From contig JAPOLI010000003.1 in assembly GCA_029977205.1 (NCBI GenBank), positions 1 to 64,000 on the forward strand: 64,000 nt of DNA. The letters are read 5' to 3'. This document shows positions 52,318 through 54,091 of this stretch, piece by piece; within the stretch, counting starts at the first letter, position 1; every line of letters starts with the position of its first letter. Below the pieces are notes generated by a model. The model searched no databases. It was not told the origin of the DNA and saw nothing but the letters and a program-made list of their open reading frames with translations. The DNA comes from a bacterium (GTDB lineage Bacteria > Actinomycetota > Thermoleophilia > Miltoncostaeales > Miltoncostaeaceae). A program made the translations under genes and the position numbers.

Positions 52318-53442
52318 TCATGCCGCCTCCTGGAGCGCGTCGGCCATCGCCGCGAGCAGGCGGTCGGTGTGCTCGGGGAGGCCGACGGTGATGCGAAGCC
52401 CCCCTGGGGCACCGAAGCCACCCGTGGGACGCACGATCACCCCGCGCCGCGTGAGGGCTGCGTCGATCGCCGCGGCCCGCTGCGCGCCGACCTCCACGAA
52501 CACGAAGTTGGCCGACGACGGCAATGGGTCGAGGCCGAGGGCCCGGAGACCGTCGGCCATGCGCTCGCGCTCCGCGGTCGCCGTGGCGATCCGGCCCGGG
52601 AGATGCTCGGGCGCATCGGCCAGCGATGCCACGGCCGCCACCTGCGCCACGGCATTGACGTCGAACGCGTTGCGCACCGGCGACAGGGCCTCGGCGAGGC
52701 CGTCGGGTCCCGCCATCCATCCCACGCGCAGGCCAGCGAGGCCGTAGGCCTTGCTGAAGGTGCGCATCACCACGAGATGCCGCCCCTCGCGCAGCAGCGC
52801 CACGCCGTCGTGCGAGCCGGCCGGCAGGTACTCGAAGTAGGCCTCGTCGATCACGGGGAGCACGTGCGACGGCAGGGCGTCGAGGAACCGCCGCAGCGCC
52901 TCGTCGCTCACCACGCCGCCGGTCGGGTTGTTTGGGCTCACCACCACGGCGATCTTCGTCGCGGGGCCCACGGCACCCGCGAGGGCGTCGAGGTCGTACG
53001 CACCCCCGGCGTCGAGCGGTACCGGGGTCCACGTGGCGCCCTGGACCGTGGCGCCCTGCCGGTACGACACGAACGAGGGCCAGCACATCACGATCTCGTC
53101 ACCGGGATCGAGCATGGCCAGGCACAGGATCTTGATGAGGCTGTCCATGCCGTTTCCCACGACGATTCGCTCCTGGGGGATGCCGTGGCGCTCGGCCAGC
53201 GCATCGCGGACGTCCCAGGCGCCGGGGTCCGGGTAGAGGTTCTGCTCGCCGGCCGCGTCCCGGATCGCCTGGGTGGCCGCGGGGAACGGCGGATAGGGAC
53301 CCTCATTCGACGCGAGCTTCGTGATGGGCAGGTCACCGAGCTCGCGTCGCAGTTCTGCGAGGGGGCGCCCGGGCACGTACGGCTGCACCGACGCGAGGTT
53401 CGGCCGTATCAGCGCGTGGTCGAGATGCGACGCGTCGGGCAC
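52318..53442 (-). CDS. hisC: histidinol-phosphate aminotransferase family protein
   Basis: 374 residues of the class I/II aminotransferases. HisC-type start KLASNEGPYPPFPAATQAI, NPTGG near residue 168 and the PLP Lys in RTFSKAYGLAGLRVGW (about 232). It may also act on aromatic amino acids; other his genes are absent here. GTG 53442 has the -10 box TAGCCT 7 nt upstream, so its message is probably leaderless. Confidence 0.87.
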   Translation of the reverse strand: MPDASHLDHALIRPNLASVQPYVPGRPLAELRRELGDLPITKLASNEGPYPPFPAATQAIRDAAGEQNLYPDPGAWDVRDALAERHGIPQERIVVGNGMDSLIKILCLAMLDPGDEIVMCWPSFVSYRQGATVQGATWTPVPLDAGGAYDLDALAGAVGPATKIAVVVSPNNPTGGVVSDEALRRFLDALPSHVLPVIDEAYFEYLPAGSHDGVALLREGRHLVVMRTFSKAYGLAGLRVGWMAGPDGLAEALSPVRNAFDVNAVAQVAAVASLADAPEHLPGRIATATAERERMADGLRALGLDPLPSSANFVFVEVGAQRAAAIDAALTRRGVIVRPTGGFGAPGGLRITVGLPEHTDRLLAAMADALQEAA

Positions 53443-53449
53443 GGGCCGG

Positions 53450-53455
53450 AGGCTA
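53450..53455 (-). promoter_or_regulatory. -10 box TAGCCT of hisC, leaderless type
   Basis: Minus-strand hexamer ending 7 nt before GTG 53442. It shares two base pairs (53454-53455) with the opposing -10 box. Confidence 0.55.
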
Positions 53456-53459
53456 CACT
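53454..53459 (+). promoter_or_regulatory. -10 box TACACT of the LON-domain gene, leaderless type
   Basis: Plus-strand hexamer ending 8 nt before ATG 53468. Identical to that of lutA and back-to-back with the hisC -10 box. Confidence 0.55.
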
Positions 53460-53467
53460 CGCCGCCG

Positions 53468-54091
53468 ATGCCGGAACTCGACGACCTCGGCCTCTTCCCG
53501 CTCGGACTCGTTCTGCTGCCGGGCGAGCGCGCGCCGCTGCACCTGTTCGAGCCGCGGTACCGCCAGCTGATGGCCGACTGCGTGCTCGACGACCGCCCGT
53601 TCGTGATCCTCCAGGATCACGGCGAGGGCGCCTCCCCCATCGGGTGCACAGCACGCTTCGTGGCACTCGGTCGCCGCTTCGTCGACGGACGCATGAACGT
53701 GACCGTCGCCGGCGGACAGGTGGTCCGTGTGCTCGAGCAGACGTCCGGGCGCCTCTACTTCTCAGCATGGGTCGAGGAGGTGGCCGACACCGCACCCGAT
53801 GCGCCTGCCGAGCTCCACGATGAGGTGCGCGACCTGTTCGCGCGGCTCGTCGCCGAGGTCGCCGGCACAGACGCCGCACCGCCCATCCGCGACGACATCC
53901 CGCTGTCCTACGCCCTCGCCGGCATGATCGAGATGCCGGCCGAGCCGAAGCAGGACCTCCTCGAGTGCCGTGATGAGGAGGTGCGCCTGGCCATGGTGCG
54001 CGACATCCTCGCGGCGGCCCTCGAGGGAGCGGACCGCGAGCGCCTCGCGGCCGCCCGCGCGCGCACCAACGGCAAGGTCGCCCTGCCGTGA
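53468..54091 (+). CDS. LON substrate-binding domain protein
   Basis: 207 residues corresponding to the N-terminal domain of Lon only: LFPLGLVLLPGERAPLHLFEPRYRQLMADC (10-39) and RVLEQTSGRLYFSAWVEEV. No ATPase or protease part follows. Such proteins are common in actinobacteria, with unknown function; a role in recognising damaged proteins is a guess. ATG 53468 is fixed by family and promoter. It overlaps ygfZ by 4 nt. Confidence 0.87.
   Translation: MPELDDLGLFPLGLVLLPGERAPLHLFEPRYRQLMADCVLDDRPFVILQDHGEGASPIGCTARFVALGRRFVDGRMNVTVAGGQVVRVLEQTSGRLYFSAWVEEVADTAPDAPAELHDEVRDLFARLVAEVAGTDAAPPIRDDIPLSYALAGMIEMPAEPKQDLLECRDEEVRLAMVRDILAAALEGADRERLAAARARTNGKVALP

Follow-up and report, generated by a model that had tools for sequence, protein, structure and literature searches.

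The window, meaning the whole 64,000-nucleotide stretch of DNA analysed, originates from an uncultured member of the actinobacterial class Thermoleophilia. It contains two divergent genes, namely hisC and a gene encoding a protein with a stand-alone LON substrate-binding domain, which are separated by a gap of only 25 bp (53443-53467, gggccGGAGGCTACACTCGCCGCCg). A home-made gene caller working without any promoter information selected the same start codons for both genes. Reading the sequence by eye, we found no Shine-Dalgarno-like motif at the usual distance from the start of either hisC or LON. The features of the locus are listed in Table 1.

A preliminary description had proposed that the two genes are served by divergent leaderless promoters with overlapping -10 boxes, and on re-reading of the sequence its coordinates, the 25-bp gap, and the box spacings (8 nt on the plus strand and 7 nt on the minus strand) proved exact. 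The -10 hexamers TACACT and TAGCCT lie on opposite strands and overlap in TA, which is one of the traits of a bacterial bidirectional promoter. The two boxes also stand 7 and 8 nt before start codons in a genome enriched for such boxes at 6-9 nt, which is the pattern of leaderless TANNNT promoters.

Table 1. Genes and promoter features of the hisC-LON region, in positions of the window.
Feature	Position	Strand	Remarks
hisC, histidinol-phosphate aminotransferase	52318..53442	minus	PF00155; TIGR01141, 283.7 bits (cut-off 276.55)
Stand-alone LON substrate-binding-domain protein	53468..54091	plus	PF02190, E 6e-17
hisC start codon GTG, probable transcription start	53440..53442	minus	same position in all tight genomes
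LON-domain gene start codon ATG, probable transcription start	53468..53470	plus	
Predicted bidirectional core AGGCTACACT (ANNNTANNNT)	53450..53459	unstranded	identical in 17/17 tight-gap genus members
Predicted LON -10 box TACACT	53454..53459	plus	8 nt before ATG, within the 6-9 nt leaderless peak
Predicted hisC -10 box TAGCCT	53450..53455	minus	7 nt before GTG
TA pair common to both -10 boxes	53454..53455	unstranded	
Invariant segment GGAGGCTACACTCGCCGCC	53448..53466 (19 bp)	unstranded	19/19 columns in 17 genomes
Variable spacer between hisC start codon and core	53443..53447	unstranded	5/5 columns vary

Leaderless promoters in the genus

We examined the position of TANNNT hexamers relative to called start codons in stretches of approximately 1.26 Mb from three genomes by using the simple home-made gene caller, which missed or misplaced some starts (for example, that of aat in G018) and in the same genome placed a gene across the aldehyde dehydrogenase/pdxH site. 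Of the 773 called starts in G018, 120 were preceded by the hexamer at a distance of 6-9 nt, as were 51 of the 356 in G008; elsewhere it occurred approximately once per position. No -35 signal was detected in 180 aligned leaderless boxes. Leaderless promoters are, as judged from these sequence patterns, common in the genus, and because TANNNT peaks at 6-9 nt, both hisC/LON boxes are placed where leaderless promoters sit.

The commonest spacing between box and start codon in the genus was 6 nt. The hisC spacing (7 nt) and the LON spacing (8 nt) exceed this value by 1-2 nt, so transcription may start 1-2 nt upstream of the codon. Position 53467 is C in 4 of 17 relatives, which leaves the A of the ATG as the sole purine 6-9 nt after the LON box and fits a LON transcription start at the codon itself. 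Each predicted message is likely to begin at its own start codon.

Three directional leaderless promoters near the locus retained TANNNT while their middle bases varied (TATCCT/TATGCT; TAGCGT/TACCGT/TACGTT/TAGGTT; TAGACT/TAGGCT). An A at the position that completes a reverse box was present in only 14 of 180 leaderless boxes, bidirectional cases included.

Conservation of the hisC/LON core

The LON gene adjoins hisC in 18 of the 20 genomes of the genus. Among the 18 genomes with the locus, 17 have the tight 25-bp gap, the hisC GTG and LON ATG at the same positions, and an identical segment at 53448-53466; the distance of 7 nt between the GTG and TAGCCT is fixed in all 17. In these tight genomes, only 2 of 32 fourfold-degenerate sites within the first 60 codons of hisC and LON were invariant, and the LON proteins of the relatives are 77-91% identical to that of the query. 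The invariance runs past the two boxes, into GG at 53448-49 and CGCCGCC at 53460-66. Because the invariant segment is longer than the boxes need, an additional bound factor is possible.

The proposal of two leaderless -10 boxes sharing TA thus received comparative support, as the TA was kept in 17 of 17 genomes with the 25-bp gap. Loss of the shared TA in relatives that keep the gene pair had been named beforehand as refuting, and it was not seen; the TA was kept even in G008, the genome in which the hisC start has moved.

Two irregularities were noted among the genomes compared. The LON open frame of L019 (G006:C38:3117) is split at residues 177/178, by either a frameshift or an assembly error. 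In addition, several public metagenome-assembled genomes of this Thermoleophilia genus (L047, L052, and L055) carry the title Bifidobacterium breve, apparently a misnaming.

The same layout at other gene pairs

Scanning also revealed the shared-TA layout, flanked by start codons, at three other divergent gene pairs that the genus conserves. Between aat and hemB, ACGATACACT was present in 19 of 19 genomes. A pair of small uncharacterised genes had the layout in 16 of 17 genomes, as AGGATAGAGT in 15 and as AGGATAAAGT in one, and the aldehyde dehydrogenase/pdxH pair had AGGCTACCGT in 10 of 14. The four bidirectional cores have in common only A...TA...T and the distance to both start codons.

We also counted the motif without regard to orthology. 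Over 1.26 Mb, 6 of 71 occurrences of ANNNTANNNT had a start codon at 6-9 nt on each side together with open frames of at least 80 codons, at least one of the six lying inside a gene, and the same test on most rearranged variants of the motif gave 0-1%. The genus-wide raw count of CAYN{6,9}ANNNTANNNTN{6,9}RTG was not clearly above that of a reversed control. Counts alone therefore prove nothing, and conservation at each locus was used instead. Sites that were not bidirectional pairs were left out, namely an SOS-like palindrome, a site before a zinc-transporter-like gene, the palindrome GCGATGGTACCGTCGC, and sites with co-directional called genes or inside a gene.

Several further sites are described here in their own right. 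An RNase D-like/ABC-F pair (L228, upstream of the RNase D start; orthologues L229-L245) carries GCCTAATSTTAGG between its two start codons, an overlap of the class TAATSTTA in which two leaderless hexamers overlap by 4 bp. This overlap is kept in most of the genus and is broken or split in G012 and G014, and the pair was not counted among the shared-TA pairs. The palindrome CGAACATATGTTCG, which resembles the actinobacterial SOS (LexA) box, lies between possible divergent start codons at G018:C1:377886, G012:C54:755, and G015:C166:3498. A conserved near-palindrome, GCGATGGTACCGTCGC, resembling an operator or a strong promoter, lies just before a gene near rsmI at G018:C3:59980, G008:C7:15959, G012:C67:8306, and other positions. 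A conserved site containing CATTCTCAT, possibly a Zur site overlapping a promoter, precedes a gene similar to those for zinc ABC-transporter binding proteins at G012:C60:21001, G008:C5:80528, and G013:C25:2943.

Half-boxes where a start codon lies farther away

The hisC start of G008 has shifted and lies approximately 50 bp from the LON start. The final T of the hisC box (A at 53450 on the plus strand), which is kept in 17 of 17 tight genomes, is lost there (TAGCCA), and the LON box TACACT and the shared TA are intact. A tree of concatenated proteins placed G008 nested within the genus and tight genomes in both main clades, so the change in the hisC half-box is probably a loss. At the small-gene pair, one start of G018 lies approximately 65 bp away; the half-box of that gene is gone and the TANNNT of the other gene remains.

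The third case concerns G002, G003, G010, and G016, in which the pdxH start is farther away. The pdxH half reads TACCCC in this group, versus TACCGT, and the aldehyde dehydrogenase half AGGCTA is kept. The genomes of the group that are included in the tree fall in a clade sister to the rest, so the unmerged state may be original rather than the result of a loss. Whether the state is original or a loss, the case ties the half-box to the adjacency of the start codon.

In total, 62 tight cases had both halves, with the qualification that "tight" required the full motif between the starts and that tight gaps with one half broken would be scored as "other". The rows scored as "other", when read by eye, all had a start farther from the core (6 of 6). 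The evidence from relocation consists of three separate cases only, each of which was without exactly the half of the relocated gene.

Probable origin of the proposed shared promoter

The two genes also diverge in most of the family's other genera, where hisC and LON have separate TANNNT boxes 6-9 nt from each start, the hisC box lying 8-9 nt from its start; in a few genomes of these genera, one of the two boxes was not recognised. The gap is 38 bp in g10, which is closest by LON protein, 53-90 bp in others, and far longer in g4. On the evidence of these sequences, the layout most likely arose when a gap in which two separate leaderless promoters were already present became shorter, and such shortening suffices to explain the overlap. 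The genomes of this genus measure 1.0-2.0 Mb and those of the rest of the family 1.4-4.5 Mb; general genome compaction is therefore plausible.

A shared TA was also read by eye in genus g8 (L155 and L158), where ATCGTATAGT lies 8-9 nt from hisC and 16-19 nt from LON. Because g8 is distant from this genus, its fusion is probably independent, with one mRNA predicted to carry a short leader.

Discussion

The findings strongly suggest that the hisC/LON gap is a single bidirectional promoter formed by two fused leaderless promoters, with both mRNAs being leaderless, a reading to which we assign a probability of roughly 0.86. Under the mechanism that we propose, in which the start sites, the identity of the sigma factor, the low occupancy, and the direction of evolutionary change are what we infer, the housekeeping sigma factor would recognise a TANNNT -10 box in ANNNTANNNT on each of the two strands. 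In one orientation, the polymerase would open the TA and begin transcription at the LON ATG or no more than 1-2 nt from it; in the other, it would start at or near the hisC GTG. The leaderless hisC and LON mRNAs would then be translated from their 5'-terminal start codons. Once the gap had shortened, purifying selection from both genes would hold the layout.

Two polymerases cannot occupy the overlapping boxes at once, and the preliminary description had argued from this that the overlap forces a trade-off between the two genes. That argument was unsupported. The mechanism with the best support is the one demonstrated experimentally for Escherichia coli and Salmonella, where the polymerase can bind in either orientation to a -10 region that is nearly symmetric (PMC12825309, PMC10268837). 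All five bidirectional promoters of E. coli tested in vitro had basal activities too low for competition, and lowering transcription in one direction barely affected the other; competition arose only on strong activation of one side (PMC12825309). At hisC/LON there is no sign of an activator, nor are the two genes related. Binding of the polymerase would be mutually exclusive, and firing is probably too rare for either gene to be limited by its neighbour.

The unchanging core could instead mean that the overlap is a selected regulatory device, in which polymerase exclusion couples the genes for a trade-off or for noise control. In keeping with this idea, the cores of four gene pairs are almost invariant throughout the genus, and activating one side of a bidirectional promoter in E. 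coli produced polymerase competition and reduced noise (PMC12825309). Nevertheless, we consider the idea unlikely, for the partners are unrelated (hisC/LON domain, aat/hemB, and aldehyde dehydrogenase/pdxH), hisC and LON can be separated without loss of either gene, as in G008 and other genera, and the need for two half-boxes already predicts invariant box positions. It is similarly doubtful that shared-TA promoters are a stable, selected architecture joining unrelated housekeeping genes in which the exclusion itself is useful; if it were, the benefit could be, for example, lower expression noise or a fixed ratio, rather than the overlap being a by-product of gap shortening.

Alternatively, LON alone could have a promoter here, with hisC transcribed from elsewhere and GGAGG acting as an extended -10 or another LON element. 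In favour of this, the LON box is kept almost throughout, G008 and the majority of other genera included, and extended -10 elements exist in actinobacteria (PMC3898074). This explanation is decidedly improbable, because in G008, where hisC moved, the upstream half changes while LON and TACACT are kept, and because AGG stands upstream of only 2 of 180 leaderless boxes, with A at that position in 14. Moreover, the hisC GTG keeps its fixed 7 nt from TAGCCT in every tight genome, and hisC in other genera has its own TANNNT at 8-9 nt. Even less probable is that the 19-bp segment serves chiefly as an operator for a transcription factor, with incidental -10-like hexamers. The conservation of GG and CGCCGCC outside the hexamers would be accounted for, but the four cores have nothing in common beyond A...TA...T and the start-codon distances, and there is no inverted repeat beyond the box symmetry, unlike in same-pattern sites such as GAACATATGTTC. 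Finally, GGAGG (53448-53452) is a perfect anti-Shine-Dalgarno match and could serve LON on a longer mRNA starting inside hisC, but TACACT stands between it and the LON start. As a Shine-Dalgarno site for LON it was rejected: it ends 15 nt before the ATG, whereas such motifs peak at 4-10 nt in the genus with little or no excess at 15, and it is lost in G008 while the LON start is unchanged. We give this last explanation almost no weight.

The concept of the bacterial bidirectional promoter was reportedly introduced by Warman et al. in 2021 in Nature Microbiology. The promoter that we propose resembles the bidirectional promoters described since (Middlemiss et al. 2023, PMC10268837; Warman et al. 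2026, PMC12825309) in its near-symmetric -10 region read on both strands, close divergent starts, mutually exclusive polymerase binding, and location, which is often between divergent genes. The divergent starts of bacterial bidirectional promoters lie 7-25 bp apart. The commonest spacing in E. coli is 18 bp (PMC12825309), whereas the hisC/LON boxes share only TA. With transcription beginning 7 bp from both boxes the predicted starts would be 23 bp apart, and with transcription beginning exactly at the codons, 26 bp; by geometry, hisC/LON fits the 23-bp class, one of the common E. coli spacings (PMC12825309). Since both products are predicted to be leaderless, the whole intergenic region would be one promoter, unlike in the E. 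coli cases.

The locus is also comparable with actinobacterial leaderless promoters, which have TANNNT approximately 10 nt before the start codon, no evident -35, a start codon at the expected start site, and both GTG and ATG starts (PMC3898074, PMC3160421). Such promoters are described as directional (PMC3898074, PMC3160421), whereas hisC/LON would be two of them fused head to head through TA. Closely juxtaposed divergent promoters are reported in Mycobacterium tuberculosis, where the divergent genes prpD (Rv1130) and Rv1129c both have leaderless mRNAs; these are a regulator/target pair, unlike hisC/LON, and the available part of the account does not describe overlapping -10 boxes for them (PMC3898074). 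The EcoRV restriction-modification promoters are similarly divergent with overlapping polymerase sites, but they are under the control of a C protein, and the EcoRV C transcript is not leaderless (PMC5333194). Both ingredients, bidirectional promoters and actinobacterial leaderless TANNNT promoters, are thus known. A search of the literature, most subscription papers being outside its scope, yielded neither an account of conserved shared-TA leaderless/leaderless pairs nor any start-site maps for Thermoleophilia.

Bidirectional promoters are common in start-site maps; their reverse direction may be under selection to a greater or lesser extent, or may simply follow from the symmetry of the -10 box. 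A half-box that is kept with an adjacent start and absent with a distant one, in a layout found at four unrelated loci, provides comparative evidence that both directions are selected. Point mutations would be expected to silence one gene at a time. Little DNA may suffice for two bacterial genes: at this locus, 25 bp would hold two promoters and two translation starts.
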